DNA from: Rhodopseudomonas faecalis
GTDB lineage: Bacteria > Pseudomonadota > Alphaproteobacteria > Rhizobiales > Xanthobacteraceae
NCBI RefSeq assembly: GCF_003217325.1
Contig: NZ_QJTI01000008.1
Location: 44,386 to 108,385 of the forward strand
DNA: 64,000 nucleotides
Direction of reading: 5' to 3'
Part shown: positions 14,659 to 52,835 of the stretch, piece by piece
How the letters are laid out: the number at the start of each line of letters is the position of its first letter
Position numbering within the stretch: position 1 is the first letter of the stretch
The notes under the pieces: generated by a model
What the model saw: the letters and a program-made list of their open reading frames with translations, nothing else
What the model was told of the DNA's origin: nothing
Databases searched by the model: none
Position numbers and translations under genes: made by a program

Positions 14659-14660
14659 GA

Positions 14661-18354: not shown

Positions 18355-18371
18355 CACCGGCATGCGATGAC

Positions 18372-27207: not shown

Positions 27208-27209
27208 TT

Positions 27210-27296: not shown

Positions 27297-27403
27297 TTCT
27301 AAGCGCGCGCCCGACAAGGAGACGTCGCCCCAGTGTTTTCCGGCTGAGCGTTCGCTTCCGCTATTTGATCGCCCTGGCGTGCAGCCACGCGCGCTGAGCC
27401 ATC

Positions 27404-27474
27404 AGCAAACACGAAAAAGCCCGCCAGAGGCGGGCTAATTCGTTGATATCGCTATCAAAGCTTGGTTGCGGGAG
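27404..27474 (-). repeat. Attachment-site scar, copy 2
   Basis: This second 71-bp copy of the terminator plus tRNA 3' end lies 1,608 bp from copy 1. Only about 12 nt of tRNA (27463-27474) are kept. It lies in the 411-bp gene-free stretch 27208-27618; the rest of that stretch holds the fic operator boxes and nothing else I can name. Confidence 0.75.
27413..27435 (-). terminator. Rho-independent terminator, copy 2
   Basis: The hairpin GCCCGCC / GGCGGGC with an AGA-type loop and five Ts on the - strand is identical to copy 1. It could now end the leftward helicase transcript 184 bp after its stop codon. Confidence 0.75.
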
Positions 27475-27618
27475 GCTGCAACCACCATTACTTGCGACCT
27501 ACTAACAGCCATTTTCCTATCAACGCCAAATCCAACGCGGGGAGAATGGTTGCTAAAAATAGCAGCTTTCATTCCGTCCTATTCCGAACAGCAGCGTGAG
27601 TATCGGTTACACTACAAC

Positions 27619-30159
27619 TCAACCGCCACGTTTTCCCGGCGAAAAATCCGGCACTGCGCGCCGAACGCGGTCAGCGCAGGTTCGTTTGTCATCTATCACC
27701 TCTGACCGACCTGGAACGGGACGCAGGACATCGCCATGCAACTGCGCCCTCAGTTCCAGCCAACGCGCCTTGAGAACCTGCCAGTTGTGATCGTCGTATG
27801 TGCCACTGACGACAACAGGGTGAACCCGAATGCGGGGTGGGAGACCATCACCATGATCCCTCCATTTCCGCCATTCGCGAAGCCAAAGACTGTTCTTGCG
27901 ATCCACACGCCCAATCTGCTGCTCGACAATGCCGGGATTCCACTCCGCGTGCAGTAGAATCACTGTGCGACAGGCCTCATGCAGATTCAGGCCCTCACGC
28001 CCGACGCGGGATTGCGCGAGGAGCACCATCGGCCAACTGGACGACCGGTTGAATGCAGATTGCAGCATACGCCGCGTTTGCGGTGCGGTTGCGCCTGACA
28101 TCATCCTGGCGAAGTTGCCCTCGCGCCCGGAATAGTCGTTCAGCCAGGCATCCAGCCGGGCTTTCTGCGTATCGTTGTTCTCTGCTTCATCATCCCCGGC
28201 AAGCTCCAGGAGCAGTTTTTCGAACAGCCCGAGCATTTCCCGCCCCGTCCAGGAAGCGCCCGCAACTTCCCGCCTGCCACCAAGTGCCTCGAGCAAAGCC
28301 CCGAATTGAAGGTCTTGTTTGCCGTCCTCATGGCGCAGAATCTCTGACAGAAATGCAGCAGCTCCTCCCTCCAGCGCAAGGTCTTCCAACTCCCGATGAA
28401 GCCGTGCGAGTTCAGCCCGGCGCTCGCTCGCCCACTCCTGATAGCGGGTTTTCAACATTACATCGATTTCGTCGACCTCACCCGCCACCGCAAGATCAGG
28501 ATCCCTCATCGCCGCAATGACGGCTGCTATATTGCTTTCCCCGATCCCACTGGCAGGCCAGTGCTGTCCGTCTCGCAAACGACGCAGCATCTCACGCGCG
28601 TCCAACAGTCTGGTCAGCACATTCATCGGCGTCAGGAACCTGCCGAAGACGAGCACTTTCTCGCCGGCCCGTGTATAGGCCTCGATTTGTCTCACAGCCG
28701 CCAGGATCGCAGGGTGGCTATAGATGTCGTTGCTCTCAGCGGTGAAAGCTTCCGTCCAAAACCCCGCCGGACCAACGAGGTTTGCATCTGTCATGCCTGA
28801 AGGGCTGTCTTCCTCATCCTCTCCAAAGCCGAACCCATACCCCTGTGCAACGGCGAGCCTGACCCGTTTCACACGCGGATCATCCTGAGGGAGTAACGAC
28901 AGCGCCTCAGCCGCACAAAAGCGGCGCAACCAGTCACGGGTATAACCCTCTGCCTCCGGCGAAACCGGGATATCGGTGACCTCACGATAATCACCATGAC
29001 TGTCTTTGAAGACGCAGAATTCGGGGTCACTGCGTTTGTCCCGGCGCAGGACGTATGGTCGCAATGCTGCGTAGAACTGCCGGGCGGAGGTCTCGAATTC
29101 CCCGGTCAGCGTCTCGTCCAGTTCTTCGGTTTGAATCCGACGAACAACATCCACATAGCCGGTGATCCATTCCGTCAGCTCTGCGAGCGCAGTAATATCC
29201 TGATCGTCATCGCGACCATTGAGCCGCTCCAGCGTGTCGATCCACTGGCTGGAGTCCAGCTCGACCGGGGTTGCGGTCATGCCCAGACGAAAAGGATCAT
29301 CCGCTTCCCAGCTTACCGGGCCGAGAATGCGCGAAAGGCTTGAATCTGCGCCGCGCGCCTTGTGGGCTTCGTCAACGACTATGAGATCAAAACGACCCAG
29401 GCCATAGCCGATCAGCGGCAGGATCCTGTTCTTGTAATCGTCCGCCGAAAGCCATTTCTGATCGCCGTTAATGGCATCGCGCGGCAGTTCGTGGTCCAGA
29501 ATCGTTTGGGCAATGTGCCGCGCCGCACGGCGACTGGCATATACATAGCCCACCTCACCCGAATGGAAATTTTCGCGCATGAAGTTGCGCCGTCGGCCGT
29601 CAATCAGGCGGGCGACGTTGGGTAAGAGTTCCCGGCGCCAGCCTCCAGCGGGGCCTTCTCCACGATTGGGAAACTGCATGTTCGCAAAGGAATGAGAGAT
29701 CATTATGATCTCTTCGGCGGCCCAGCCGTTCTCCGGCAACTCACGCTGCTTGCGGCGATCCGAAAGCCACTCCTTATGGCTGTGTAACCGTCTTGCGCTC
29801 CCCTCCGCATCGGTATCGTGCAAGAAACCGGAGATGAAACCATCATAGCTGCGCAGCGGCAGCAATGTCTTGTCGTCGGCGTTGAACCGTTTCAGTTCCT
29901 GTTGCCATTGTGCCCCAAGGCCCGCGGGCAGAACAATGGCGCTGCGCCCGCCCGCCTCCCGCACCGCTGCGATCAGCGCCGCCGCAATGCGGGTCTTGCC
30001 CATACCCACCTCATCAGCCAGCAGGGCCGAGCGTTGGCCCGCCCGGATACGGCACGCTAATTCTGTGACACTCGCCTTCTGGCCATGATCTAGCAGGGTA
30101 TCATCAGACGTCCCTGCGATACGATCCAGAATCCTCGCGACCTCGTTCCAGTCCACCAT
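27619..30159 (-). CDS. SNF2/SWI2-type superfamily 2 helicase
   Basis: This 846-aa protein has all helicase signatures: motif I LLADEVGMGKTRIAAAL (residues about 46-62), motif II VVDEAHKARG (about 262), motif III GMTATPVE, then VLVFGRFLTPMNVL, LAQSRVGREGLNL, and motif VI EQQIGRVDRKNS. It is a DEAH-box, SNF2-like translocase. The start ATG overlaps the stop of the upstream PLD gene (TGATG). It is the last of five coupled genes following BREX. Some BREX and DISARM types carry SNF2 helicases (BrxHI/BrxHII, DrmD), but I cannot assign it to one of them. Confidence 0.88.
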   Translation of the reverse strand: MVDWNEVARILDRIAGTSDDTLLDHGQKASVTELACRIRAGQRSALLADEVGMGKTRIAAALIAAVREAGGRSAIVLPAGLGAQWQQELKRFNADDKTLLPLRSYDGFISGFLHDTDAEGSARRLHSHKEWLSDRRKQRELPENGWAAEEIIMISHSFANMQFPNRGEGPAGGWRRELLPNVARLIDGRRRNFMRENFHSGEVGYVYASRRAARHIAQTILDHELPRDAINGDQKWLSADDYKNRILPLIGYGLGRFDLIVVDEAHKARGADSSLSRILGPVSWEADDPFRLGMTATPVELDSSQWIDTLERLNGRDDDQDITALAELTEWITGYVDVVRRIQTEELDETLTGEFETSARQFYAALRPYVLRRDKRSDPEFCVFKDSHGDYREVTDIPVSPEAEGYTRDWLRRFCAAEALSLLPQDDPRVKRVRLAVAQGYGFGFGEDEEDSPSGMTDANLVGPAGFWTEAFTAESNDIYSHPAILAAVRQIEAYTRAGEKVLVFGRFLTPMNVLTRLLDAREMLRRLRDGQHWPASGIGESNIAAVIAAMRDPDLAVAGEVDEIDVMLKTRYQEWASERRAELARLHRELEDLALEGGAAAFLSEILRHEDGKQDLQFGALLEALGGRREVAGASWTGREMLGLFEKLLLELAGDDEAENNDTQKARLDAWLNDYSGREGNFARMMSGATAPQTRRMLQSAFNRSSSWPMVLLAQSRVGREGLNLHEACRTVILLHAEWNPGIVEQQIGRVDRKNSLWLREWRKWRDHGDGLPPRIRVHPVVVSGTYDDHNWQVLKARWLELRAQLHGDVLRPVPGRSEVIDDKRTCADRVRRAVPDFSPGKRGG

Positions 30160-31961
30160 CACGCGGCCTCCCGTTCCCAGAGCGATGGGTAAGCGCTGAG
30201 CTCCCACGCGACGGACACTGCCAAAAGCGCATCTCTCAATAGGTCTGGCGAAACCCCTTCCGGGCGCATACGCGGATCTACCAGAGCAGGCAGAGGATTT
30301 GCCCTGGCGTTCCGGAAGAACTCGAGCATCGTTTTTTCGCGAGACGCGATAGCGCAAAGGTTCTGTTGCAACTCCCGACACCACCTTTGCCAGTCCCGCA
30401 GGTCCAACCTTGCCTGTGTCTCACAAAGACGCACCAGAAGTTCCATCATCCTGCGAATGGGATAGGCAGCTGGCGGAGCTTCGGTGGTATCTGAGGCGTC
30501 GGTGAGCGGCTCTTCGCCTTCCTCACCCTCATCTTCGCTGTCAGCATCACCTGGCTCGGGAAATGAGCCAAGGCTGGCAAGGATATCTTCGACCGACATA
30601 TCGGAGGGGCGAGCGACAACAAGTGCTTCGGAAGAAATGACAGGCAGCCGCCAGCCGCCCTCCGCGAGTGTCACAATCGCCGGAGCCGGTGCAGGCCATG
30701 GACAAGGTGTCTGGGCCTGAGCCGCATCGACACCAATCACCATCACCGATTTGTCTTCGGGGGCCGAGAGCACCCCGTCTTGCCATATAAGCCACGCAAC
30801 TGGCGGCTGGGTTTCTGGCTCATCGGGGCGCACAAAGCCTTCCCCTTGCTGCAGGGCCTCGGGCGTCACCACATCAGTGAACTGGATTGGCAAAACAGCG
30901 GCGATACCGTTCCGCGTGTCTCTGCGTCGCGGCCATTTCAGTCCTCCCGGCAGATCGACGATCACACCTGCCTCAAGGTTTCCCCCGACGCTTGCGGCAC
31001 GCTCAAACCCGTTCATGCTCAGATTGCCGGATCCAAGATAAGCCCGTCCCGAGGCCTCGGTCTCGCCCGACGCCAGCACCACAAATTTTGCATGCAGGCA
31101 CCCATCAGTTCCATGCAAGACAGAGCGCGGAGGGCGCAAGTTCCAGCCTGCGTCAATCAAGGCACCGGCCCGGGCAGCAAGCCCCTGACAGGAGGACGGG
31201 TTAAGAAACAGGTCGAGAGCCGCTGTTTTCGTCAGGGATTTCTCCTGCACCAATGCGCGGCGCAGTCGCTCCGGCAGGCCAGCAGCACCATCGCCGTCGC
31301 TCTCGAAATAGCCAGACCCGAGGATGAGACGGTCGGCCTTCTTTTTGGTACCCAGGCGCTCGACCACCTGAGGAAACAGCGCCTGATTGCGGCTGTCGAT
31401 GAAGCGGGGACGCGCGGATGACGTGGGCAAGGCTGTGATCGCGGCCTCCAGCAGGGCGTCTGGCCGGTGTCCGTCAAAACTGCGTTCGATCAGGGCGCAA
31501 TCTGCACGCTCGCGCAGCCATCCAAACATCTCATGCGCAGCGCGGATATCGGCAATGTCCTGTGCGTCAGGCACAGCAGAGTCCAGATCGATCGACCAGA
31601 ACAGGTCGATGCTGCGAGTAAGCGGATCCTGTGTCCAGTTCCCCGTGCTGACAGCGAGGCGAATGACATAGCCATCTCCGCCGCGCTTGCGAAAACCCAG
31701 AAGCGCCACCTTGGCATGGAGAAGGTTGTAGCCGCGTCCCACGAGGTGCATCCACATCCAGGCAAGTCCCGGAACGTCCGAGATCGCATTCACGGTTGGA
31801 TGGATGAAGGCGGCCAGCACCGGGCGCGCCATCTCGCCTGTGAATGTTCGGCGGATCTGCCCCAGGACCTGCCGCGTCGCGGTGAAGCCGCACATAAGGC
31901 CAAAGTCGCCATAACAATTTTCGGGCGGCATGAAGAGGGAGTAGAGCGTCGTGTTCTGCAT
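30159..31961 (-). CDS. Phospholipase D / Tdp1-like nuclease-fold protein
   Basis: This 600-aa protein has two HxK...N signatures. The first is LLHAKVALLGF with H82, K84 and N108 (AVSTGNWTQD). The second is CLHAKFVVLASG with H290, K292 and N313 (YLGSGNLSMNG). The HKN spacing and the aromatic after GN look more like tyrosyl-DNA phosphodiesterase 1 than like classical HKD phospholipase D. A strongly acidic linker (DADSEDEGEEGEEPLTD, about residue 495) precedes a helical C-terminal domain. It is coupled to both neighbours by TGATG overlaps. The predicted role is phosphodiester or DNA-adduct cleavage within the cassette; this is inference. Confidence 0.8.
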   Translation of the reverse strand: MQNTTLYSLFMPPENCYGDFGLMCGFTATRQVLGQIRRTFTGEMARPVLAAFIHPTVNAISDVPGLAWMWMHLVGRGYNLLHAKVALLGFRKRGGDGYVIRLAVSTGNWTQDPLTRSIDLFWSIDLDSAVPDAQDIADIRAAHEMFGWLRERADCALIERSFDGHRPDALLEAAITALPTSSARPRFIDSRNQALFPQVVERLGTKKKADRLILGSGYFESDGDGAAGLPERLRRALVQEKSLTKTAALDLFLNPSSCQGLAARAGALIDAGWNLRPPRSVLHGTDGCLHAKFVVLASGETEASGRAYLGSGNLSMNGFERAASVGGNLEAGVIVDLPGGLKWPRRRDTRNGIAAVLPIQFTDVVTPEALQQGEGFVRPDEPETQPPVAWLIWQDGVLSAPEDKSVMVIGVDAAQAQTPCPWPAPAPAIVTLAEGGWRLPVISSEALVVARPSDMSVEDILASLGSFPEPGDADSEDEGEEGEEPLTDASDTTEAPPAAYPIRRMMELLVRLCETQARLDLRDWQRWCRELQQNLCAIASREKTMLEFFRNARANPLPALVDPRMRPEGVSPDLLRDALLAVSVAWELSAYPSLWEREAA

Positions 31962-33175
31962 CAGACGGCCTCCGATCCCGCGTCACGGCTGCCCGGGTTC
32001 ACCTTTCCGGACAGCTCCGTCACCAGACAATGAAGATTATGCAGCCGGAAAAGCTGCGGCGCGAAGGCCTCGTCCTGAGGGGGCCGGTTCTCGTCCTGGG
32101 TCTCCGAGTTGCTCCGCAACTCGCTCGCAGCCGGCCCGAGAAAAATGTGGCCTTCGCGCTGACAAATCACGGTAGAATCGCGCTCGGCCAGCCTCTGGAT
32201 CAGCTGCTGATCGGACAGATTTCGGACTTCCGCGATAAATCTGCGGCTAGTCTCCTCATTGCCCTGATCGACAAGCGCGCCTTTTGCCGAGGCCAGATCG
32301 CGCAATTGTTTCAGTGGCTCGGCGGCGACTTCAGCTGCGTCTGCTTCTGACAGGCGCACAGGCTGATTATCGTCGCGAAGCTTCAGCAAGTGCTGTTCCA
32401 ACTGGTCCAACACCGACAACGCAGCATCGCGAATATCCATAAAAGCCGCTCCTGCGCGCAAATCCGACCAATGATCCGGCGCCAGCCCCGCCAATGCGGT
32501 TTCCTGGTCCAAATGCGCGGAGCTGGGGCCAGTGCCGAGGCGCGCCAGGGCCCGGCGCCGGGTCGCGCCGGGATCGTTTCCGTCGAGCAATCGGGAAAGG
32601 ATCAGTTTACGCACCGCTTCCGGGACAGCCCCAACCGGGGAAAGCACTGTCAGGGCCTCCTTCAGGCCATGTGGCTGCCTGCCATGCGCCCAGGCACCAA
32701 GCAAACGGCGCGGTTCTTTCATCGCATTCAGCTCCAACAGCTCCCTGCCAGCGCTATGTATGCGAAACGCGCCGTAGCGGCTGCCCTGCACGAACCCGAG
32801 TGCGACCAGAGGCTGCACCATCGCCATGCGGATCGGCTGAACCACATAAGTTCCGCGACGCCTGAGATTATGGAAACTGCTATCCTTCAAGCCCTGCATC
32901 TTCCGCGCCCCTCGCACGCGGCGATCCTGCGGACCCGCGATGACTTCAAGCATGACGCGCGCTTCGACCGCGTTGCCGACAGGCAGTGCCGGCACACCAA
33001 GTTCCTCGGCGATAGAGATCGCAAGAACCGACCAAAGGATGGGCATGGGAAACCACATGCCGCCGATTCCGGGGACCGCCCGATCATTGAAATGACGAAC
33101 CGCCGCCGCAAGCCCGAGGTTCTGCTGGCGCCGTTGCGAAACCACGGTATCGGGCGCAAGTATTCCCCAGGGCAT
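31961..33175 (-). CDS. Unrecognised 404-aa protein of the nuclease cassette
   Basis: I do not recognise a family. The first 60 residues are moderately hydrophobic (GGMWFPMPILWSVLAISIAEELG) but not a clear signal or membrane segment. Residues about 95-150 look like a winged-helix or small DNA-binding domain (FHNLRRRGTYVVQPIRMAMVQPLVALGFVQ then YGAFRIHSAGRELLEL). The middle and C-terminal parts are helical and charged. Its start overlaps the stop of the AddA-like gene and its stop overlaps the PLD start, so it should be made in step with them. It may be a scaffold or DNA-recognition subunit. Confidence 0.75.
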   Translation of the reverse strand: MPWGILAPDTVVSQRRQQNLGLAAAVRHFNDRAVPGIGGMWFPMPILWSVLAISIAEELGVPALPVGNAVEARVMLEVIAGPQDRRVRGARKMQGLKDSSFHNLRRRGTYVVQPIRMAMVQPLVALGFVQGSRYGAFRIHSAGRELLELNAMKEPRRLLGAWAHGRQPHGLKEALTVLSPVGAVPEAVRKLILSRLLDGNDPGATRRRALARLGTGPSSAHLDQETALAGLAPDHWSDLRAGAAFMDIRDAALSVLDQLEQHLLKLRDDNQPVRLSEADAAEVAAEPLKQLRDLASAKGALVDQGNEETSRRFIAEVRNLSDQQLIQRLAERDSTVICQREGHIFLGPAASELRSNSETQDENRPPQDEAFAPQLFRLHNLHCLVTELSGKVNPGSRDAGSEAV

Positions 33176-36100
33176 CAGTTAACTCTGGCCTGTGCGAAAG
33201 CTCCCGCTGACGCGCCCTCATCTGCCAGTTCCAGCCAACCGTGATCGACCCAGAACACCGCCACGCCCTGCAGCGGATGCTGCGGGTATAGTCCGGCCAA
33301 CAGTCCGGCATAGCTGGAAAGCTGTGGCCAATAGGGGCCGAACCCGTCACCGCCGCCGCCGGATTTATGGTCGATCAGCATCGCGCCTGCCGGGCCGATG
33401 GCGAGAAGGTCGAGGGCACCGGGGATCTCTGCACCCTCGGGCGTGTGGCCAAGCACCGGAATCTCGGCGCGCAGATCCGTATAGCCCTGATCGACAAGCC
33501 AGGCTTTCAGCGCCGTGGCGCGCTCGGCCACTAGCGCAAGAGTGGCGTCGTCAAGCCCGGTCGCGAGAGCCAAAGCCGGGGCCAGATCGGGCCGGGTCAG
33601 GTATGTGCGCAGCGCCAGATGCAGTGCTGTGCCGCGGTAGGCATCGTTCAGTGCCTTTGGCCAGGGTGCTCCGATGCTGATACGGCGGGACACGGGCGGC
33701 ACCCCCGCACTACGGGTTTGCGAGGGCTGCAGCCGCCAGGGCGTCAGCGGTGTCACGGGCAACGGCGCAGCGGCACCGAATCGCAGCGCTGAGGCTGCCG
33801 CACCGCCTGCGTACTCGGTAAATCCCGCCTCTTCAGGCAGTTGCGTGATCAGCGCCGGGCAATCCACGCCATTGATGCGCAGGCTGCCCGCCCCGATCTG
33901 CGGCGCGCAAGTATCGGACAGGATATGAAACAGGTTCGTAGCCTCGGGCGCGTCTTCTTCGCGGTCCTTCAGAAAACCCGGCCATTCCAGCACCAGCCGG
34001 TCACGGGCACGGGTCAGGGCGACATAGAGAAGGTTTTTCGCATTGGCTTCAAAATCGGCGCGACGGTCTTCGATGAAACGGCGGGTCGCCTCGGGCGCGG
34101 CAAAGCCGGGCGTGTGGATCAGGCTCGCGGACCCCAGCACCACCGCCATATCGTCGATGCGGTCCAAGGCATCGAAACGGGTCGCAGTGGCCCCCGCACG
34201 TTCCTCGATACCATAGTCGAACTCTGCGACGACAGTGATCGGCCATTCCCGCCCTTTGGAGGCATGCCAGGTGACGATCTCCACGGCCTCGGCGCTGTTG
34301 GCGGAAGGATCGGGATGACGGTCGAAATCGCGCTCGCCTCCACGGGCGTCGAGCCAGCCGAGAAAGACCTTGGCAGTCTCGCCGTGGAACCCCGAGGCGG
34401 ATTTGAGATCGCGATGCGCGGCTTCGAACTCACCCGCCTCAGCCTCTAGCCGCATAAGATCGGCGCGGGATTGGGCGGCGTCAGGCTGACGTTCGGCCCA
34501 GAGGCGCAGGCCGGCGGCATCCAACACCAGATCAAGGGCCGCACCCACCGGCAGGCGGGCCAAAAGGTTCGACAGAGCGGCGAGCCGCATCAGCACCGGG
34601 TCATCCACCAACCGCCCTTCCATTTGGGCGGATAGCGCCTCCTGCAAGGACAGCGGGTCCGGGCCAAGCGTGCGCAAGAGCAGCCCGGCATGGATATCCG
34701 CCGGATTGGCGGCAAAGGCCAGCGCGGCGCGGGCGGCAACAATCACCGGACTTTTCGCCCAGCCATCCTCGGCGATCCGCACCGGAACGCCGCGCGCGCG
34801 CAGTTCCTCGGCATAGCGGGCGGCGGTGGTGTGGCGACAGACCAACAGCGCGATATCCGAGGGCCGAGCCGGTCGGGCGGCCTTCGTGTGGCGGTCGGTG
34901 ATAGTCTCAGTATCAGTCAGGATACGGGCGATGCGCTCGGCGATGTGTTCTGGGGGCTGCGAATACTTTTGTGAGCGCCGTCCCTGCGTAGCGTTCAGCA
35001 CCTCGATCGCGGGACCTGCGACCGCATCGCGGGTCGGCACCAGCGGGTTATAGCCCTGCCCAAAGAGGCCAGCCCCCATCCCATTGACGAATTGCATAAT
35101 GGCTGGGGTCGAGCGCCAGTTGCGGTCCAAAGGCTGGGTTGCATCGGGATTTGCCGCCGCCAGCGCTGTGGACAGGCGCGGATCGGCGCCCTGAAACCCC
35201 ATGATCGACTGTTTGACATCGCCCACCAGCAGTGTGCGCGGCGCGTGCTGGCCCAACTGCCACAAAAGCGCGAATTGCACAGGGTTGGTATCCTGGAATT
35301 CGTCGATGATGACGCAGTCGATCTCGTCCAGCACCGCTTGCCGCACGGCGAGGTCGGTGCGGAGCAGGTGCTCAGCCCCGGTGATCATATCAGCAAAGTC
35401 TATCAGGCCGAGCGCCTTCTTGCGGGTCTCATAGGCCGCCATCACCTCTTGCGCGCAGGCGATCAGGCAGGACAGGTGCAGCTTAGCATCGGCCAGCGGG
35501 CCGGGATGGCAGGGCAGCACATCCGCCGCCGCCATGATCGCCGTGGCAAGGTCGTCATATCCCGCAGGCGTCTTGCTGGAGCGGTTAGAGATGAACAGGC
35601 TGCGCAGATCGTTCCAGACCTGCCAATCCCGATCCAGAAGATCGGGCGCGCGATCAACACGTTTGAAAAGCGCGAGGTTTTTCTCCAGCTTCTCGACATT
35701 GGTTTTGGCGGTGATCCCGGCCATGCCTCCCTCGGGAAAGGCTGCGATCATGACCTGCACGGCCGTCTGCAACGCGGTGGTCGCGGCGATAGGGTCATCC
35801 AGAACCGGCCCGTAAACCGCATCCAGCCGCGTCAGTGCCGGAGCGATCAGGCCAGCGTCACGCCCCTTGTCCCCAAGGCCGCGCAAGAGGTCGATCATCG
35901 ATAGCACCCGGGCGCGCAAACTGTCTTCGACCGTCTCGCCCTTCACGAAGTTCGGGGCGTAACCGAACCGCTCGGGCGCGGCCTTGATCGGGTCCAGCGC
36001 CTTGGCATGTGCCAGTGCCTGACGGATCAGCAGATCCCGCTCGGCATCGCCCAGATGGCGCGGCTGCGGCGAGGCGCCAGCCGCCAGAGCATGTTCGGTC

Positions 36101-36381
36101 AAAAGCCGCAGGCCCAGTCCATGTATGGTCGAGACATAGGCGCGCTCGACCGCCATCGCCTCGGCGACCAGTCCATCGGCCAGAAGGCCGGCACGGATCC
36201 TTTCGCGCAACTCGCCAGCCGCGGCCTCGGTAAAGGTGACGGCAAGGATGCGTTCGGGCCGGACAATGCCGCGTTTCACCCAATCGGACAGCTGGGTCTT
36301 GATGCGGTGGGTCTTGCCCGCGCCGGCACCCGCAGGAACGATGACCAGACCTTGATCTGCATTGACGGGGGCCATGGTCAT
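33175..36381 (-). CDS. AddA-like UvrD helicase with C-terminal PD-(D/E)XK nuclease
   Basis: This 1,068-aa protein has Walker A PAGAGAGKTHRIKTQ (residues 16-30), AVTFTEAAAGELRERI, the Walker B DCVIIDEFQDTNP, GDVKQSIMGFQGADPRL, the late UvrD motif VEIVTWHASKGREWPI, and NLLYVALTRARDRLV. The C-terminus has GALDLLAIGPAGAMLIDHKSG and a Q-containing WPQLSSYAGLLAG, i.e. a PD-(D/E)XK nuclease. This is the AddA architecture, slightly short. It overlaps the AddB-like gene by ATGA. The cell's own AddAB or RecBCD would normally be elsewhere; this copy is island-borne. Confidence 0.85.
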   Translation of the reverse strand: MTMAPVNADQGLVIVPAGAGAGKTHRIKTQLSDWVKRGIVRPERILAVTFTEAAAGELRERIRAGLLADGLVAEAMAVERAYVSTIHGLGLRLLTEHALAAGASPQPRHLGDAERDLLIRQALAHAKALDPIKAAPERFGYAPNFVKGETVEDSLRARVLSMIDLLRGLGDKGRDAGLIAPALTRLDAVYGPVLDDPIAATTALQTAVQVMIAAFPEGGMAGITAKTNVEKLEKNLALFKRVDRAPDLLDRDWQVWNDLRSLFISNRSSKTPAGYDDLATAIMAAADVLPCHPGPLADAKLHLSCLIACAQEVMAAYETRKKALGLIDFADMITGAEHLLRTDLAVRQAVLDEIDCVIIDEFQDTNPVQFALLWQLGQHAPRTLLVGDVKQSIMGFQGADPRLSTALAAANPDATQPLDRNWRSTPAIMQFVNGMGAGLFGQGYNPLVPTRDAVAGPAIEVLNATQGRRSQKYSQPPEHIAERIARILTDTETITDRHTKAARPARPSDIALLVCRHTTAARYAEELRARGVPVRIAEDGWAKSPVIVAARAALAFAANPADIHAGLLLRTLGPDPLSLQEALSAQMEGRLVDDPVLMRLAALSNLLARLPVGAALDLVLDAAGLRLWAERQPDAAQSRADLMRLEAEAGEFEAAHRDLKSASGFHGETAKVFLGWLDARGGERDFDRHPDPSANSAEAVEIVTWHASKGREWPITVVAEFDYGIEERAGATATRFDALDRIDDMAVVLGSASLIHTPGFAAPEATRRFIEDRRADFEANAKNLLYVALTRARDRLVLEWPGFLKDREEDAPEATNLFHILSDTCAPQIGAGSLRINGVDCPALITQLPEEAGFTEYAGGAAASALRFGAAAPLPVTPLTPWRLQPSQTRSAGVPPVSRRISIGAPWPKALNDAYRGTALHLALRTYLTRPDLAPALALATGLDDATLALVAERATALKAWLVDQGYTDLRAEIPVLGHTPEGAEIPGALDLLAIGPAGAMLIDHKSGGGGDGFGPYWPQLSSYAGLLAGLYPQHPLQGVAVFWVDHGWLELADEGASAGAFAQARVN

Positions 36382-38924
36382 TCCTCCTCGAGCGTGCGGA
36401 TGAAGGCGGTGACCATGGCCGAGCCATCGGTCAGCGCATATGGGGTGAAGCCGGCTTCTTTCTTGAAGAAGGCCGCATCCTCAGAGGTGTTCAGCACGAC
36501 CCGTCCTGCACCAAGTTCGGCCAAGCGTTCCGCCAGCTTGGCTACCGCCCCGGCATTCACCGCATCGCCCATGTCGCGGGCGGGCGAGCCCTCGGGCAAG
36601 ACCAGACCCGAAGTCAGCAGCCCGCCATCATTCATCAGGTGATAGGCGACCGCCACCTTGCGGCCGATCAGCGGGTCCATGCCGTCACCCTCGCGCCGCA
36701 TGGGCCTCGCTATCATATCGGCGTAAAGCCCTGCCTGCAGATCCCAGCCCGCCTCCATCCGCTGCCGTCGGCCCTTGGTGCCGCTTTTCTTGTGATCGAC
36801 GATCAAGATCGCACCATCAGGCAGTTCAAGGATCGCGTCGGCCTTGCCATGCAGATTGATGCCATGCGCCTCACCGGCCAGCCAGATTTCATTGCCGATG
36901 ATCTTGGCATTGAGCGCCAGCAAGTGGTCGCGCCAGCGCAGGGCCGCCGCCATGATCTCACGCTCCAAACCGCGGCGCTCCATCTCCCATGACGGGCTGC
37001 GCAGATAGCCCGCGTGACGGGTGAGCGCGCGGTCATAGGCCTCGGGGATCAGTTCTGCCAGCGCCTCGGTTTCCGGGAACGGCTGATCCTTCAGGAAGAC
37101 ATGCTCAAAGACATCATGGGCGATATTGCCCCTTGCCATCACGTCGAGTTCTTCGGTCGACCAAGACATATCCTCGGCCCCAACCTCGGCCAGAAGCCAG
37201 GCGAGCGGGCTGACAAGCAGCGTCTCGAGCCGTGAGGGCGATTGCGGTTTGGCGGTGCCGTCATCGCGCCGACGAAGGGACAGAAGGTCATGCCCCGGGA
37301 AAGCAAGCTCCTCAGGCAATTCCGCGGGTTCCGGCACCGGCATCAGATGGTGATACGCAATCGGCCATTCCGCAGGGCTCTGACGCGACAGATCGGTGAT
37401 CAGATCGCTGGCATCCTCAACGCCCGCCACCGCCCGCGCCACCAGCGACAACCCGGCCGAAGGTTGCAAGCGCCCGCCCGCCAGATCGCGCCATGGGATG
37501 AGGAAGGTGACGCTGCCGGAAACCGCCTGAAGCTGTTGATCAAGTAACGCGAGGCTTTGCGCCAGCCCCTCGGCCCGACCGCGAAGGTGAACGCCGATTC
37601 CCGCGCGTATCGCAGCGATCTCGCTGTCAAGAAACAGCGGATTGGCACGCGGGCGAGTCGGGTAAAGCCCGTCGGTGAAATCGCTGACGATCAGATGGCG
37701 GCATGGGCGCCACGGGCTTTCATGCGCGGACCAAAGGCTGACGCCTTCAAGATTGCGGTCGGGGTCCGCAACCATGGGCGGCGCGATCTGAATGCCACGC
37801 AGGATTATCTCCCAATCCGGCGTGCCTTCGCCGGGGGGGACAGTCAGCCGCGCGCGGACCTGATCGCCTTTTCCGATCCGCTCGCAGATCCGGTCCAGCA
37901 GGAATCGCAGCTGCGGCAAGCTGCCGGCCGAGGCGCGGATATCGTCCCAAAGTTCCTTATGTGCGGGCGTACCCGTGAGGATGGCGCCTCGGAAATCGCC
38001 ACCCATGAGGCTTTCGGCAAGATCGCGCCCGGTCTGTGCCGCCCAAGGCATCAAGGGAGAAAGCGCGAGGCTCGCCAAGACCATGGCCGGAGTTGGCGGT
38101 CGCTTGGCCAGCGCCAGATGTAGCGCGGTCTCGCCAATGACATCTCGCTCGGGTAATTGGCCCGGAAGGCCCGAGAGCGGCACTCCCTGGGCCGAGAAAG
38201 CGCGCGCGATCTGGCGCAGATCATCGCCCGACAGCACGGCGATTTCACGGGCCGAAACGCCGGACTCAATCAGCGCCCGGGCTTGGGCGGCGGCGAAATC
38301 GGCGCAGGCGGCGGGATCGCGCAGGCCATAGAACGCGAGGCTGTCATCCAGAACCCCGGCCTCGATATCCTGCGCTGAAACACCGCCCTGCAGCGCGTGC
38401 AGGCGGCTGCCGATTGCGGCCCGGGGCGTATAGGCGCTTGCGGGAACAGTGCCGAACTCGTCCCGCAACCGGGCAAAAAGCGCCTGCAGCGCCGCAGGAG
38501 CTAGAGGATCGAGCGAACCTTCAACCACCGGCAACGAGCCCAGGAACGACCCATGCGGCAGGGCCAGCACATGGGAAATCGGTGCCAGCCCCTCTGGCAG
38601 CGCATCCCCCAACCTTTGCCACAACGCGACCAGCGCCAAGAGATGCCGCTTGGCGCGGCTGTCTGGCAGGTGATCGACGTTCGGCACCTTCAGATCCGGC
38701 GTGGCCAGCACAAGATCCGTCAGCGCGGCGGTCACCGCCGAGATCGTCTCGACAGGCGCATTGGCAAGACTTTCGGCCCAGACCGGGTCAGGCGCCTCGG
38801 CAATGGCACGCCCCGGCGCCCATTCGGCAGAAATGGGGGCAAGGGACAATTCGGCAAGACCGGTATCGGTCAGGCGGTATTGCAGGCCGGAGCGCGGATC
38901 AGTGACGAGGAAGGGGTAGTGCAT
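36378..38924 (-). CDS. AddB-like inactivated-helicase / PD-(D/E)XK nuclease
   Basis: This 848-aa protein has no Walker A motif but shows degenerate UvrD-like segments (REIAVLSGDDLRQIARAF, SLWSAHESPWRPCRHLIVSDFTDGLYPTR). The C-terminal PD-(D/E)XK domain is GKADAILELPDGAILIVDHKKSG followed by DLQAGLYADM. The iron-sulfur cysteines of classical AddB are not seen near this domain. It starts 124 bp after brxL and is stop-start coupled to the AddA-like gene. AddB is the closest family by layout; sequence assignment is moderate. Confidence 0.8.
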   Translation of the reverse strand: MHYPFLVTDPRSGLQYRLTDTGLAELSLAPISAEWAPGRAIAEAPDPVWAESLANAPVETISAVTAALTDLVLATPDLKVPNVDHLPDSRAKRHLLALVALWQRLGDALPEGLAPISHVLALPHGSFLGSLPVVEGSLDPLAPAALQALFARLRDEFGTVPASAYTPRAAIGSRLHALQGGVSAQDIEAGVLDDSLAFYGLRDPAACADFAAAQARALIESGVSAREIAVLSGDDLRQIARAFSAQGVPLSGLPGQLPERDVIGETALHLALAKRPPTPAMVLASLALSPLMPWAAQTGRDLAESLMGGDFRGAILTGTPAHKELWDDIRASAGSLPQLRFLLDRICERIGKGDQVRARLTVPPGEGTPDWEIILRGIQIAPPMVADPDRNLEGVSLWSAHESPWRPCRHLIVSDFTDGLYPTRPRANPLFLDSEIAAIRAGIGVHLRGRAEGLAQSLALLDQQLQAVSGSVTFLIPWRDLAGGRLQPSAGLSLVARAVAGVEDASDLITDLSRQSPAEWPIAYHHLMPVPEPAELPEELAFPGHDLLSLRRRDDGTAKPQSPSRLETLLVSPLAWLLAEVGAEDMSWSTEELDVMARGNIAHDVFEHVFLKDQPFPETEALAELIPEAYDRALTRHAGYLRSPSWEMERRGLEREIMAAALRWRDHLLALNAKIIGNEIWLAGEAHGINLHGKADAILELPDGAILIVDHKKSGTKGRRQRMEAGWDLQAGLYADMIARPMRREGDGMDPLIGRKVAVAYHLMNDGGLLTSGLVLPEGSPARDMGDAVNAGAVAKLAERLAELGAGRVVLNTSEDAAFFKKEAGFTPYALTDGSAMVTAFIRTLEEE

Positions 38925-39048
38925 GAATGGCCTGCAATCTGCGGATCAGGAAAACTGTAACGAGGATGAGGGCTTGGGCATCGAGGTCGACTTCTTGCTT
39001 CCCGCCGAGCGCGTAGCCGAACCTGCACCGCCAACACGGTCGACGAAG
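38925..39048. other. Gap between brxL and the AddB-like gene
   Basis: This is the longest gap in the 25-kb leftward gene run. I see no hairpin-plus-T terminator and no convincing promoter, so read-through from BREX is possible. Confidence 0.4.
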
Positions 39049-41130
39049 CTAAAGGTTCTCGACATAAGTCACGTAGAAACCACGGACCATCCGGTGCTCC
39101 TGCATCCGTTCTCCCAGCGAGAAACCGTTCATCTTGCGAGGCGTTGGCTGGAAAATATCCAATCCGCGATCCAGAACCATCTTCCAGCCAGTATCCGTCG
39201 TGATGTCGCGTGCATGGAGAGTGCCGCTCCCATCGAAGGCCCATGTGAAATCGACGCCCGTGCCTGTGCAGGCTTCAGCAATCCCGTCCAGGCACTCTCG
39301 CTGCTCCTGAATGTTCCCATCGTCCGGAGCCGTGACAAGATGCACAGCGATCTGATCTTCAGGCTGTTTGCGCCTGATCAGCATCTCGATCAGTTCCATC
39401 ACGTTGCGCGCCTGATGGAACTTCCGGATATAGGGGTCTGTGATGATGATCCGCGTCGCGCCATCCGTCCAAGGACCAAAGATCTTGTCGAAACTGATGC
39501 CCTTGCGGTTTTCTGTGAAAACGACATGTCCGGGAGTTGGGGGTGAGTGCGGGGCAGCGGCAACGGCAGGTGCTGCGGAAGCAGCCACCGTTGAGACCGG
39601 CTCTGCCGGTACCAACCCAATCTCTTGTTGATTCGTACCTTCACTTCCATCGTCGGTTGATCGACGGTGGTAGAACTGGGGGAACTCCTCTTCCTCCAGC
39701 GTGGCGACGGCGCGCTTTGCGCCATCCGATGCGATGTAATGGAAATCTGCTGTCTCAAAGGTGCTGTCGATCCGCAGGAGCTGATCCTTCACCCGCTTTC
39801 GGCATTCAATCGCAAAGCGCAGCAGTTCTTCAACTTCGGCTTCTGTCTCGCCTCCATTCGGGAAGATCAGCTTCAGCAGACCTGACATGGTCTTGTTGAT
39901 CGCCGCACGGTCCCGGATATGGGTCTGAACCGGAATGGTGAAATAGCGATCTGGCCGGTGCGAGAAGTCCTCCGCACGCAGATGGCGCAGGATTTCGGCG
40001 AGATAGTCGACAATGAACCCATAGCCAGATGTGAACATCTCACCCCGGATGATGTCGACCTCCCATCCGGGCAGATAGGCATGCAATCGATCAATAAAGG
40101 CGCTGTCGTGGAACTGCGGCGGCAGAGCTTCGAACAGGTCCGTATTTTTCAGCATCCAAGGCACGTTATGGTCCGTGTTGCCGACGAAGGCGAAGCTGGC
40201 CTCGGCGCCCATCGGATTTACACCACGAGAGAACTGCTTGTTTGCCATGTAGTTCTTCATGATATCGACAAGCGCCTTGTTGGCCGTCTTCTCGCGGCCC
40301 GCAAATTCGTCAAAGGCCACGACATCCCAAAAGCCGACCAATCCGATCCGGCCATTGGAATTGTTCACGAAAAGCTTGGGAACCGTGATTTCACCGCCCG
40401 AGATCAGCTGACCATGTGGCGAAAACTCGGAATAGATATGAGATTTTCCCGTCCCCTTGGGACCAAGCTCGATGAGGTTGTAGTTGCGCTCAACAAATGG
40501 GACCAAGCGCAACAGTTGCAGAAGTTTTGACCGGCGCCCGAACAGTGACGGGTCAAAGCCGATGCTCTGCATCAGGAGATCGATCCATTCCTCGGTGGTG
40601 AACTTGTCCCGCGTCTCGCGATAACCATCATAGTCGACACGGGCGATCTGGATCGGCTTCAGCGTGTCGATGATCCAAGGAGAGATCCGGCTGTCTTCCG
40701 AGAATTCGTACTGCACATCGGCGATGCACCAAATACCCGTAACCAGCAGTTTCGGGTGCGCCTTTACCGTGGCGCTGTCGATGGCAACCCGCTTGATACC
40801 GAGGTTTTCAAAGACCGCCTCATAGGCATCGGTCTTTTCATTCAGCGCCACGCTAACCTGATCGATGACCTTGTAGCGGCCACGCTCCTTGATCGTTGAT
40901 TGTACCAACCCAGCTTCGGAACGATGGACGTAGTGCTTGCGCAGGATGTCCTTGACCGTTTCAATGCCTGTCGCAATCGAGGCTTCGTCATCGGTCGCGC
41001 AATACTGGCCGAGAAGGTATTCGAGCACATAAGTGGGGACAATGGCGTTCCCTTTCACGGCCTTCACCAGGTCCTTACGGACCACGAAACCGGCAAAATG
41101 CTCATTGATCTTGTCATCAAGGGTCGACAT
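39049..41130 (-). CDS. brxL: BREX type 1 protein BrxL (Lon-like AAA+ ATPase)
   Basis: BrxL is the MCM/Lon-related AAA+ effector-type subunit of type 1 BREX. The 693-aa protein starts STLDDKINEHFAGFVVRKDL, has Walker A ELGPKGTGKSHIY at residues 221-233, VVAFDEFAGRE (Walker B region), and a proline/alanine linker (about 540-560). It ends in a domain with HARDITTDTGWKMVLDRGLDIFQ, as BrxL proteins do. I prefer the ATG at 41130 with a GAGGTG site; a GTG 6 bp upstream exists. It lies 7 bp after pglZ. Confidence 0.94.
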   Translation of the reverse strand: MSTLDDKINEHFAGFVVRKDLVKAVKGNAIVPTYVLEYLLGQYCATDDEASIATGIETVKDILRKHYVHRSEAGLVQSTIKERGRYKVIDQVSVALNEKTDAYEAVFENLGIKRVAIDSATVKAHPKLLVTGIWCIADVQYEFSEDSRISPWIIDTLKPIQIARVDYDGYRETRDKFTTEEWIDLLMQSIGFDPSLFGRRSKLLQLLRLVPFVERNYNLIELGPKGTGKSHIYSEFSPHGQLISGGEITVPKLFVNNSNGRIGLVGFWDVVAFDEFAGREKTANKALVDIMKNYMANKQFSRGVNPMGAEASFAFVGNTDHNVPWMLKNTDLFEALPPQFHDSAFIDRLHAYLPGWEVDIIRGEMFTSGYGFIVDYLAEILRHLRAEDFSHRPDRYFTIPVQTHIRDRAAINKTMSGLLKLIFPNGGETEAEVEELLRFAIECRKRVKDQLLRIDSTFETADFHYIASDGAKRAVATLEEEEFPQFYHRRSTDDGSEGTNQQEIGLVPAEPVSTVAASAAPAVAAAPHSPPTPGHVVFTENRKGISFDKIFGPWTDGATRIIITDPYIRKFHQARNVMELIEMLIRRKQPEDQIAVHLVTAPDDGNIQEQRECLDGIAEACTGTGVDFTWAFDGSGTLHARDITTDTGWKMVLDRGLDIFQPTPRKMNGFSLGERMQEHRMVRGFYVTYVENL

Positions 41131-41137
41131 CGGCACC

Positions 41138-43645
41138 TCAGAAATCGAAATCTGTACTGATCCCGCGTTTCAGCAGCAGCGGCTGCGAAGCGTGATCTTC
41201 GAAATGGCTGGTCTTTCCGATGCGCGTTCGCAGCTTCAGGAAGACTGTCTGATTGTTATAGGCGTCTGCCGCCTTGGACAGCAGGAAGCTCCGCGACAAC
41301 TCGCGCTCGCGCGGGTTCTCAGACGTGAAATCGAATTCCAACTCGGCTTCATCTGAGATGAGTGTTTTATCGTCGGCAAAGATGGCTGCATGCACCTGCC
41401 GGGGCTGCTGCTTGTCGGTCACTGGCTCCGCCTGATAGAAGGTGACCTGGATCTGGCCCGTGGTGATCTGAGCACGGGGTGGCGGAATGATCTGCACCGA
41501 AACCTGTCCGACATCCTCCTTGCGCTGCTTGCCGACACGCAGGACCGGCAGGACGATCTCCTGCAGGCTCGCCCCGCCATGGACAAAGCGGCTGCCCGAT
41601 CCTTTGACGCGCAGGCGGTTGATCGAGTTCGGGATCAGAATGTCCTGCTCACCTTCCAGCCCAAGCTGTGCAGCAGAGAACTTCTTCATGCCGCCACTGC
41701 TGTTAAGGCCCCGGCCGATCACGAAGCGCCGGTTTCGTGTAACGATCTCGCCCTCCGGCTCGCTCAGCGCGAAGCCGCTCTCTTCCAGAGCCTTGTGCTG
41801 CCACAAGAAGCCGTGATCGGCGGTGATCAGGATGTTCGAGAAATTGGCCGAAGTCAGCTTCCGCACCAGCTTCACCAGATCCTCGATGGCAGCCTCTGCC
41901 GCAGCTGGGACATTTTCCTCGGTGGTGAGCTTGTCGCCAATCGCGTCGATCTGGTTGTGATACAGATAGAGGACATCATGATCCCGGAAGAGGTCTTTGC
42001 CCTCCGATGATCCCAGATTCATGAAATCCTTAGCCGCGAGAACCTTTACCCGGTCTCCAGCCCGGCCCGCAGCAAGCGCCTTTTCACGCGCAGCGGCCCC
42101 CATGGTGCTTTCACCGTCCAGCAGCACCAGATCATTGTCGTCGCGGATCGCCAGTTGTCGGTGCGGCAACAGCGCCGCCATGCCAAGCTGCGTGTAGCTC
42201 GGCAAAACCCCGATCATCGGCTTCAGTTCAGCATCGAACCGATTGAGCTTGCGTATCTCGCGCAGTGCCTCTTCGGCCACCTCATAGCGCAGCGCATCCG
42301 AGATAATGACAACGACCTTCTGATCCTTGCGCCGGTATTCAGCAGCCTGCCCCCGGTAGAAATCCACCTGACGTGGAAAGCCCGGGACCGCCCAGTCCGT
42401 CAGGCGGGCAACCTCATCCTGCCAGGCATCGTTCAGCTTGAGCACGAAATTCGTAGTGTAACGGTTCTCAACCGCCTCATAGAGCGCGGACAGCAGCCCC
42501 GACTGACCGCTTTTCTGCATGTGATAGATGAACTTGCGATAGAGCTGGTCCAGTCGAAACCAGCTTGCGGAATAGCGCTTCACACCATCGGACAGGCTGG
42601 TCATCGTCAGATCAGCCTCGGCCAGCGCCTGCTGAAACTCGGTCGCATAGCCAATGGCCTGATAGACATCCGCGTAACGGCTATACCAATGGCTCTGGCG
42701 GCGATCGCGCACCCATTTCAGCACATCTGTCGCCGACAGGCTCTGCCGGGCAAGCCCCTCAACGATGGCGACAACGATCCTCCGATCCACTTCCTCGAAG
42801 TGATCATGCGGCATCAGGCTACGGAAATCGCGGGAAGCCAGATCGTCCCTGATCTTCAGCACGTCCTGATAATCGCCCGACAGCTTCTCGAACGTCTCAC
42901 CCCACCGGCGCGAGGCGCTCCAGCGGCGGAACATCAACGCGGCATCAGGATTCAGGCGGGCAGCCTCTCCCATGGCCCGCGCCCAGGCGCTGGAAAACAG
43001 CGTGATGGCGAAATCCTGAAAATCCGGCGCATCCGCCGCATAGCCATAACGCGCTGTCACTTCCTTCCAGAAGAACTCTGACAGCCCGACACGATCCACC
43101 AGCTTCAGCGCCTCATCACGGCCTTCAGCCAGTTCGGCCAGCAACGCCTCGATCACCGTATCGAGATCGCCATCCGCACCGACGCAGACCGCCAGCATCT
43201 TGCGGCGGACATCGTTGGCGCTTTGCGATGGCCGCTCGCGCTCGATCGCGCGAAGCGCTTCCAGCCGCTTGCCGGAACGGTAAAATTCGGCGTGATCGCG
43301 CACGGCGGCTTCATACTTCGCCGGAATGCCGAGATCAGCCACCCAGATCGCCGCCTGATCGGCGCGGAACACGGCGCTGGCCAGTTGCACATCCAGCAGC
43401 CAATTCTCAGGCATCGGCGGCTCGGGGCCGTCCTTATAGAGCAGGAACCGTGCCTTCGGCTCCTGCCGCAGCATGCGGTATTTCAGGCCGAATTCGTTGT
43501 TGGTGATCTCCACCTTGCTGACGCCGGGCAGATCAACCGCATCGAACGCTGCGCGCAGATCGCGGGCAGCGTCATACCAGAAAACTATGCGGTGCCCCTG
43601 ATCCTCATAGAGGCGCATCAGGCCGGCGGTGATGCGGTCAGTCAT
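41138..43645 (-). CDS. pglZ: BREX type 1 protein PglZ (alkaline-phosphatase superfamily)
   Basis: The 835-aa PglZ begins TDRITAGLMRLYEDQGHRIVFWYD. The phosphatase-like metal site is visible as KVVVIISDALRYEVAEE and ILITADHGFLWQH, with FVHGGASLQEIVLPVL later. It is the signature component of all BREX systems. The ATG at 43645 overlaps the pglX end by 8 bp; an upstream frame of 12 codons is less likely. Confidence 0.95.
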   Translation of the reverse strand: MTDRITAGLMRLYEDQGHRIVFWYDAARDLRAAFDAVDLPGVSKVEITNNEFGLKYRMLRQEPKARFLLYKDGPEPPMPENWLLDVQLASAVFRADQAAIWVADLGIPAKYEAAVRDHAEFYRSGKRLEALRAIERERPSQSANDVRRKMLAVCVGADGDLDTVIEALLAELAEGRDEALKLVDRVGLSEFFWKEVTARYGYAADAPDFQDFAITLFSSAWARAMGEAARLNPDAALMFRRWSASRRWGETFEKLSGDYQDVLKIRDDLASRDFRSLMPHDHFEEVDRRIVVAIVEGLARQSLSATDVLKWVRDRRQSHWYSRYADVYQAIGYATEFQQALAEADLTMTSLSDGVKRYSASWFRLDQLYRKFIYHMQKSGQSGLLSALYEAVENRYTTNFVLKLNDAWQDEVARLTDWAVPGFPRQVDFYRGQAAEYRRKDQKVVVIISDALRYEVAEEALREIRKLNRFDAELKPMIGVLPSYTQLGMAALLPHRQLAIRDDNDLVLLDGESTMGAAAREKALAAGRAGDRVKVLAAKDFMNLGSSEGKDLFRDHDVLYLYHNQIDAIGDKLTTEENVPAAAEAAIEDLVKLVRKLTSANFSNILITADHGFLWQHKALEESGFALSEPEGEIVTRNRRFVIGRGLNSSGGMKKFSAAQLGLEGEQDILIPNSINRLRVKGSGSRFVHGGASLQEIVLPVLRVGKQRKEDVGQVSVQIIPPPRAQITTGQIQVTFYQAEPVTDKQQPRQVHAAIFADDKTLISDEAELEFDFTSENPRERELSRSFLLSKAADAYNNQTVFLKLRTRIGKTSHFEDHASQPLLLKRGISTDFDF

Positions 43646-50671: not shown

Positions 50672-51277
50672 TCAGACCTCGTAATTCATGATATTGAACG
50701 CGCGGTAGTATTTGTCGTCATGCAGCAAGCCGAACAATTCCAGCGATGCTCCTGTCGCCAGCGCGTGCGTGTATTTTCCCGGAAAGAACATGACCGTCGG
50801 GCGATCTTTCGCGGTGCTTTGCAGGTTGTTGAGTACGTTGTGCGACCGTAGGTAGGGGTAAACCTCGCCTACGCCTGACAGGAAGATCACGTCGTGCGGG
50901 ACTTCTTCGATGTGCCGCGCAATCTCTGGAATGAGGTGTGCCTGCGGGTCCAGAACCCCCTGCAACAGTTCCTTGAGCTCCGCCTTTTCCGTTTCGGCTT
51001 CAACCTCAAGGATCTGCTCGAAGATACCCCGGTCTTCGAGGATCCTGATCGAAAGATCATAGAGATCAATATCAAGTACGCGCACACCAGCGTGGCTCAG
51101 CCGGGCGATCAGATCCTCGCGATCCTCGCCCAGGCTCAGTCCGTCTTCGGCATCAAAAGCGCAGATAAAAAAGGGAACCTCGTTTCCCAGCCCTTGCTTT
51201 TGCAAGAACCGATCGCTGGAAACTACCCTGAATAGGTGCTCGGCGCGGGCGCGCCGATCAGTTTTCGTGCCCACCAT
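50672..51277 (-). CDS. brxB: BREX protein BrxB (DUF1788)
   Basis: The 201-aa protein matches the DUF1788 pattern: RVVSSDRFLQKQGLGNEVPFFI, VLDIDLYDLSIRILEDRGIF, PHDVIFLSGVGEVYPYLRSH and PTVMFFPGKY, ending YYRAFNIMNYEV. Its function is not defined but it is required in type 1 BREX. The start overlaps the brxA stop (TAATG). Confidence 0.94.
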   Translation of the reverse strand: MVGTKTDRRARAEHLFRVVSSDRFLQKQGLGNEVPFFICAFDAEDGLSLGEDREDLIARLSHAGVRVLDIDLYDLSIRILEDRGIFEQILEVEAETEKAELKELLQGVLDPQAHLIPEIARHIEEVPHDVIFLSGVGEVYPYLRSHNVLNNLQSTAKDRPTVMFFPGKYTHALATGASLELFGLLHDDKYYRAFNIMNYEV

Positions 51278-52778: not shown

Positions 52779-52817
52779 TGCTCGTCCCGCCGCACTTGAA
52801 AGGATAAAAAGTATATG

Positions 52818-52835
52818 GGACACCTTGCGATGTCC
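52818..52835. promoter_or_regulatory. Inverted repeat upstream of brxR, putative BrxR operator
   Basis: GGACA (52818-52822), 8 bp, TGTCC (52831-52835) form a short inverted repeat set in AT-rich sequence 40 bp before the brxR start. BrxR proteins bind inverted repeats at this place in studied systems. Confidence 0.55.

Follow-up and report, generated by a model that had tools for sequence, protein, structure and literature searches.

The subject of this analysis is a cassette of five leftward genes at positions 27619-38924 of a 64,000-nucleotide (nt) stretch of Rhodopseudomonas faecalis DNA (contig NZ_QJTI01000008.1, positions 44,386 to 108,385; hereafter the window). An open reading frame (ORF) check places them in the order AddB-like nuclease subunit, AddA-like helicase-nuclease, 404-residue protein, Tdp1/PLD-like protein and SNF2-type helicase. 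Read directly in the window, the AddB/AddA junction is an ATGA overlap, and the AddA/404-residue, 404-residue/PLD and PLD/SNF2 junctions are TGATG overlaps. Upstream of the cassette stands a complete type 1 BREX operon (WYL-brxA-brxB-brxC-pglX-pglZ-brxL, with a PADLOC match for each gene); the six type 1 genes brxA, brxB, brxC, pglX, pglZ and brxL are present in order, which is a feature of that operon and not of the cassette. A simple consensus scan of the 124-nt gap between brxL and the AddB-like gene found neither a terminator nor a sigma-70-like promoter. A first-pass annotation of the window had described this layout, and ORFs, junctions and PADLOC matches agree with it. The comparisons reported here indicate that the locus is a real, recurrent and modular composite, the interest of which lies in the exchange of its modules more than in a new enzyme.

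The overlapping junctions are not peculiar to the window, for in the more distant relatives L015, L017 and L023 (63-80% identity) the first three junctions overlap too, and the PLD and SNF2 genes are one base apart. The mechanically called SNF2 ORF begins at a GTG at 30384; because relatives of 65% identity align only from residue 77, the true start is very likely the ATG inside the TGATG at 30159, which would give a protein of 846 amino acids (aa).

Table 1. Features of the cassette, the adjoining BREX operon and the shared border, in window coordinates
Feature	Position	Strand	Basis
AddB/AdnA-like subunit	36378..38924	-	848 aa; PF12705 1.3e-17
AddA-like subunit	33175..36381	-	1068 aa; PF00580 3.8e-44
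404-aa protein, family-less	31961..33175	-	without family match; mainly helical in a weak model
Tdp1/PLD-like protein	30159..31961	-	600 aa; ZacB 2.4e-8; two HxK motifs
SNF2-type helicase/translocase	27619..30159	-	846 aa; PF04851, PF00271, PF00176
Gap between brxL and AddB-like gene	38925..39048	-	124 nt
brxL (BREX partner in the window clade)	39049..41136	-	PADLOC BrxL, 1167 bits
pglZ	41138..43681	-	PADLOC match
pglX	43638..47129	-	PADLOC match
brxC	47129..50668	-	PADLOC match
brxB	50672..51277	-	PADLOC match
brxA	51277..51879	-	PADLOC match
WYL regulator, head of BREX operon	51876..52823	-	PADLOC WYL 6.2e-16
Common right border	27463..27618	.	homology end points in 15 compared loci

The first two genes (AddBA) provide a UvrD motor, and nuclease motifs in both subunits (PF00580 and PF12705; DHKS and DHKK), which is the layout of AddAB and AdnAB: a motor with a nuclease and a partner with a nuclease. 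The AddA-like protein has the Walker A sequence GAGAGKT and DEFQD of a UvrD helicase and the C-terminal nuclease motifs GTALH...DHKS...QL, and a phmmer search of solved structures matched it to the AddA of AddAB (3u44, 3.1e-14), with RecB also among its solved relatives. In the AddB-like protein a C-terminal PD-(D/E)XK nuclease was read from the motifs GNIAH...GKAD...DHKK...QAGLY. The AddB of AddAB carries cysteines that hold an iron-sulfur cluster, whereas the only cysteines of the cassette protein (Cys 207, 347 and 408) lie away from the nuclease, and a motif scan found no GxxxxGK[ST] (Walker A) motif in it. Both proteins fall far below the NCBIfam cut-offs (148.4 against 860.75 bits for AddA, 21.2 against 486.5 bits for AddB). 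Foldseek placed the AddB-like model closest to AdnA (9np6, 7.4e-8) and AddB (4cei, 2.5e-5) with low template-modelling (TM) scores, matches that count as support only, since the model is weak; the PLD and AddB alignments, used as queries against PDB sequences, returned nothing at E 0.1. The host genome encodes a separate, full housekeeping AddB on another contig (1167.8 bits), so that the cassette pair is additional to it. AddBA is probably a mobile relative of AddAB/AdnAB that combines a single motor with two nucleases and serves defence, not chromosome repair.

The remaining three genes form what we call the core. Its first product had been reported as unrecognized, and it has no match at E 0.1 in PADLOC, Pfam, NCBIfam or PHROGs; its relatives reach down to 21-31% identity, its gene precedes the PLD gene in every compared locus that has both, and a helix-strand-strand pattern at about residues 98-147 may be winged-helix-like. 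The PLD protein has HxK motifs at H82 and H290, followed by STGN and GSGN, all invariant in six aligned sequences, the window's included; a global profile alignment joins it to ZacB (E 6.6e-9), and its Pantoea relative matches PLDc_2 and Tyr-DNA_phospho, both just under the cut-offs. The SNF2 protein contains the Pfam domains ResIII (PF04851), Helicase_C (PF00271) and SNF2-rel_dom (PF00176) and partially matches PDC-M27C, DrmD (3.1e-17), BrxHI, ZacC (1.5e-14) and DpdE, the first three of which outscore ZacC in PADLOC. The identities first proposed for the four recognizable proteins are thus borne out, by the profiles PF00580 and PF12705 and the SNF2 profiles and, for the PLD protein, by weak matches together with the HxK motifs.

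A scan of 84,980 species genomes, which was pattern-based and finds close relatives only, yielded 16 loci, 13 of which hold all five genes in the window order (counting L019, where the AddB gene is cut by a contig end). Two others (L006 and L008) begin inside AddA at a contig end. The last, L013, comes from a metagenome assembly in which a deletion or misassembly has removed all sequence between the trb genes and a point inside the 404-aa gene, while PLD and SNF2 remain; at about position 10000 of that locus the trb genes lead directly into the truncated 404-aa gene, BREX and AddBA being gone. Plasmids of Haematobacter, Novosphingobium, Leisingera and Fuscovulum have the genes in this order too. 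None of the described systems matches all five proteins, and the five recur together elsewhere, so that neither outcome that the first-pass annotation had named as fatal to its proposal was encountered.

The genes are uncommon. Searches located the 404-aa protein in 3 of 200 relatives, the PLD profile in 1 of 385 genomes of the class and 2 of 398 of the phylum, and the AddB profile in 1 of 385 genomes of the class, the host's own genome being included in these counts; a scan of viral contigs gave one locus. Among 72,556 plasmid records, PLD occurs in 7 and AddB in 11, and 5 records have both, against about 0.001 expected under independent assortment (simple arithmetic). Copies of the window clade (clade 1) are 93-99% identical across hosts as distant as Rhizobium, Haematobacter and Novosphingobium, which points to recent transfer. 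In L056-L059, L061 and L062 the common stretch continues through BREX as far as the trb genes, which the defence cargo adjoins; in L060 an insert lies at the head of BREX, and in L063 the stretch stops where the contig does. All five genes are under purifying selection: the ratio of mean nonsynonymous to mean synonymous divergence (dN and dS) within clade 1 is 0.145 for AddB, 0.166 for AddA, 0.191 for the 404-aa gene, 0.258 for PLD and 0.236 for SNF2, computed from 11, 10, 11, 12 and 13 copies, respectively, of 13 named, with partial or broken copies dropped and L013, L019 and clade 2 outside the set.

Recurrence both with and without BREX, a check proposed with the first-pass annotation, was found. 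In clade 1, BREX lies directly upstream in ten loci (the window, L004 of Rhizobium rosettiformans, L005, L007 of Paracoccus binzhouensis, L009, L010, L011, L014, L025 and L026), although in L004, L005, L007, L009, L010, L011 and L014 only pglZ and brxL fall within the compared stretch. Clade 2, which comprises L015, L016, L017, L018 and the plasmid locus L023, has the five genes at 63-80% identity and no adjoining BREX; its entire front end differs from that of clade 1, the upstream genes encoding a double-AAA ATPase, a WYL protein and a phosphatase-ADP-ribosylglycohydrolase. A search of 15 host genomes (that of L010 not among them) found full-length BrxC in seven, a 43-residue scrap in one and none in seven; the eight genomes without the full-length protein are those of L008, L012, L013 and L019 in clade 1 and L015-L018 in clade 2. 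Our comparisons suggest that in the window clade BREX is a replaceable module occupying the place that the AAA-WYL front end has in relatives, and because the cassette also travels without BREX it is probably an anti-phage machine of its own and not a part of BREX.

The strongest rival to this view assigns the cassette to type 1 BREX as an accessory nuclease arm: BREX would mark or stall phage DNA and the five proteins degrade it. The ten loci with BREX directly upstream, the 124-nt gap with no detected terminator and the Ochrobactrum locus in which about 8 kb separate AddBA-HEPN from a BREX operon are as this idea would have them, and one report describes auxiliary nucleases as a recurrent feature of BREX loci, including PD-(D/E)XK enzymes with SF2 helicases (PMC12839542). 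Section 35, part 1, of that report describes no AddAB-type pair among them, and the words UvrD, RecB, AddA, RecBCD and Tdp1 are absent from its main text. The five proteins are not BREX components, however, and occur in the same order without BREX in L015-L018 and L023; none of the four L015-L018 genomes has a full-length BrxC (one has the 43-residue scrap), and cores in Pantoea and Desulfosarcina have no BREX within 15 kb. We consider a BREX arm unlikely, and of the two roles first offered for the cassette, arm of BREX or independent system, the BREX-free clade 2 and the eight of 15 genomes without full BrxC favour independence; the broader outline of a co-translated machine predicted to process DNA ends stands.

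Comparison across loci further indicates that the cassette consists of two reassorting modules, AddBA and the core (404 aa-PLD-SNF2), with a swappable front end. In Fuscovulum (L021), AddB and AddA are 88 and 89% identical to those of the window and the core only 29-35%. In Paracoccus versutus (L024) and the IMG/VR contig L046, the core is 63-69% identical and AddBA stands after the core, not before it; this following pair has 39-40% (AddB) and 48% (AddA) identity to the window. Approximately unbiased (AU) tests rejected, for AddB, a tree grouping the window clade, clade 2, L046 and P. versutus against Fuscovulum and Agrobacterium (p 0.0018) and, for PLD (p 0.0004) and SNF2 (p 2e-6), a tree joining Fuscovulum to the window clade alone. 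The tests thus appear to reject one common history of the modules, with p values that are rough because the trees were quick, the branches long and the groups defined with the identities already in view. Copies of AddBA that lack the core lie near WYL, AAA or HEPN genes in Sinorhizobium, N. humi, Agrobacterium and Ochrobactrum, and the core occurs without window-type AddBA in Pantoea, Desulfosarcina and L042. L068 has no AddBA upstream of its core, but its contig ends inside SNF2; in L041 another same-strand pair lies about 2.4 kb past the core, its second protein 29% identical to AddA and its first AddB-like by eye only. Within clade 1, the DNA of L007 and L026 is 90-93% identical over AddBA and 97-99% over the core, and this greater divergence of AddBA suggests that exchange goes on. 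The first-pass annotation had treated the five genes as one unit; the comparison resolves them into two exchangeable modules with a swappable front end.

Two candidates were set aside in this comparison. The AddBA of Komagataeibacter (L050) was considered as a free module, but its homology reaches a few bases past the pair, into the following gene, which makes a remnant the likelier reading. A single ORF of P. versutus that would fuse the 404-aa and PLD proteins does not share the frame of its relative; a sequencing error may account for it.

We propose that the five genes are two defence modules in one translationally coupled operon, an independent core resembling Azaca and its own helicase-nuclease of AddAB/AdnAB type, with BREX as one of several interchangeable partners; we hold this reading at about even confidence. 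The comparisons show gene content, order, motifs, purifying selection, recurrence without BREX and module exchange, whereas defence function, enzyme activities, division of labour and a shared transcript should be read as predictions. The SNF2 motor and the 404-aa protein would load on DNA linked to infection, such as ends or branched or replicating phage DNA, the PLD enzyme would cut that DNA or free blocked ends, and AddBA would then unwind and degrade duplex from the freed ends. Because cassettes exist without an adjoining methyltransferase, discrimination would more likely come from the state of the DNA and from switching on of expression (by the WYL/AAA front end) than from sequence or methyl marks. 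In the window clade, BREX would likely share a transcript with the cassette and add another line of attack against the same DNA; it could supply stalled DNA or merely shared expression. More tentatively, AddBA could be a transferable, private hub of RecBCD/AddAB type that plugs into different cores (404 aa-PLD-SNF2, AAA-WYL, HEPN, BREX) and makes them independent of the host's end-processing enzyme and its phage blockers, and with the Tdp1-like partner it might also destroy phage genomes with protein-capped ends. We regard this extension as doubtful; it derives from the report, in a preprint, that the synergy of Druantia III and Zorya II needs an intact host RecBCD, a DNA-processing hub which the two systems share and which phage proteins block (PMC13192584).

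Several observations weigh against the proposal of two coupled defence modules. The structure models are weak: AlphaFold gave a mean predicted local distance difference test (pLDDT) score of 47 for the AddB-like protein and 57 for the 404-aa protein, whose mostly helical model had no Foldseek fold match at E 0.001. The profile matches of the PLD protein are weak as well (ZacB at 31 bits, partial; DrmC 0.017). Recurrence within clade 1 is largely recent common descent by transfer, and the ten loci with BREX directly upstream fit a functional link to BREX too. Absence of BREX in clade 1 is probably secondary loss or an assembly gap, since L008 and L019 run into contig ends, transposase-like sequence precedes the L012 cassette and L013 has a deletion. 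Finally, some copies are broken: internal stops occur in the 404-aa gene of L009 and L011 and in the AddA gene of L011, the L019 copy of the 404-aa gene is in two pieces, and an insertion lies in the PLD gene of L025, from which it follows that some hosts do not need the cassette.

The closest known layout, missed by the first-pass annotation and revealed by the ZacB and ZacC matches, is that of Azaca, which was reportedly first described by Millman et al. in 2022 and whose ZacA we take to be the DUF6361 protein, as would fit the layout of L039 and L040. These two loci have strong ZacB matches and the order DUF6361-PLD-SNF2. The system (ZacA-ZacB-ZacC) is named in PMC10952713 and PMC12278908. 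The cassette resembles it in gene order and sizes (a protein of about 400 aa, a PLD protein of about 600 aa and a SNF2 helicase) and, less clearly, in the global alignment of its PLD protein with ZacB and the match of its SNF2 protein to ZacC. It differs in its first protein, in the coupled AddBA and in the AAA-WYL or BREX front end. PF19888 (DUF6361) was absent from the window's 404-aa protein and from three scanned relatives, and a profile-profile comparison with ZacA was not significant (E 0.14 local, 0.93 global). Identification of the 404-aa protein as ZacA by a short LG...VR...PG resemblance was rejected, the resemblance not being recovered in an alignment with a corrected ZacA set. Because the ZacA test failed, we call the core Azaca-like and not Azaca. 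That the cassette is a divergent Azaca system with AddBA as a chance neighbour agrees with the layout common to L039 and L040 and with the ZacB and ZacC matches; we judge it improbable, since by every test made the first protein is not DUF6361 and AddBA is linked to the core by a stop-start overlap and, depending on the lineage, lies before or after it.

Other known systems share fewer features with the cassette. DISARM likewise has PLD and SNF2 proteins, and DrmD is among the best SNF2 matches; membership was nevertheless rejected, as it had been at first reading, because no DrmB is among the matches listed for 15 window proteins (the best 25 for three of them) and DrmA appears only as a generic helicase match (4.9e-11). 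The AddA-like motor matches the GajB profiles of Gabija (1.5e-34), but it is much longer and has nuclease motifs of its own, and no GajA is among the matches listed for the five proteins. Titles and the starts of abstracts in the open-licence literature yielded no description of the five-gene combination.

An operon for DNA repair or for maintenance of a mobile element, which would act on protein-linked or broken ends of a conjugative element, seems the least probable of the explanations, for although the cassette lies beside trb conjugation genes and on conjugative plasmids and Tdp1-type enzymes repair protein-DNA links, the core is also present away from trb genes (L020, L068) and the modules have as neighbours BREX, WYL, HEPN and TIR genes, which are typical of defence islands.

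On the two-module reading that we prefer, a mobile operon with its own AddAB-type enzyme beside an Azaca-like core would offer a natural test of the RecBCD-hub idea (PMC13192584), and the replacement of another front end by BREX as one module bears on how defence islands are built.

Several features of the surrounding DNA were also recorded. Homology at the right border stops at 27463 in 8 of the 15 loci compared (L006, L007, L008, L009, L011, L014, L025 and L026), at 27637 in L004, L010 and L013, and elsewhere in the remaining loci. Just beyond SNF2 at this border, L007 and L025 have short repeats of the form CCCGCAACCATCTTTAC, which could be ends of mobile elements. A Fic-domain protein (window 26014-27270, minus strand; SoFic match 3.2e-29) lies just outside the common border, and in Fuscovulum a Fic gene follows SNF2 too, on the opposite strand. 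On the other side, window positions 54972-64000 contain trb-type conjugation genes (TrbI, CagX, VirB8, TrbL and TrbE-like) beside TetR and LysR genes.

Among the relatives, the cassette of L026 is adjoined (27264-33168) by a reverse transcriptase followed by an ATP-dependent endonuclease and a UvrD helicase, Gabija-like by annotation, so that this site looks like a defence hotspot. The Ochrobactrum plasmid locus L052 (15001-32541) has AddB-AddA-HEPN about 8 kb from a BREX operon, the BrxC start of which is 98% identical to that of the window, and so presents a further way of combining AddBA with BREX. A HEPN-type gene is found near AddBA in L021, L024, L052 and L053, with 46-47% identity to the Fuscovulum (L021) copy. 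The distant AddBA-type pair of L041 is followed, within 11955-18887, by a protein that is metallophosphoesterase-like by eye. Beside the core of L042 (16981-19880), judged from ORFs only, are repeated ORF peptides such as translated CRISPR arrays give.

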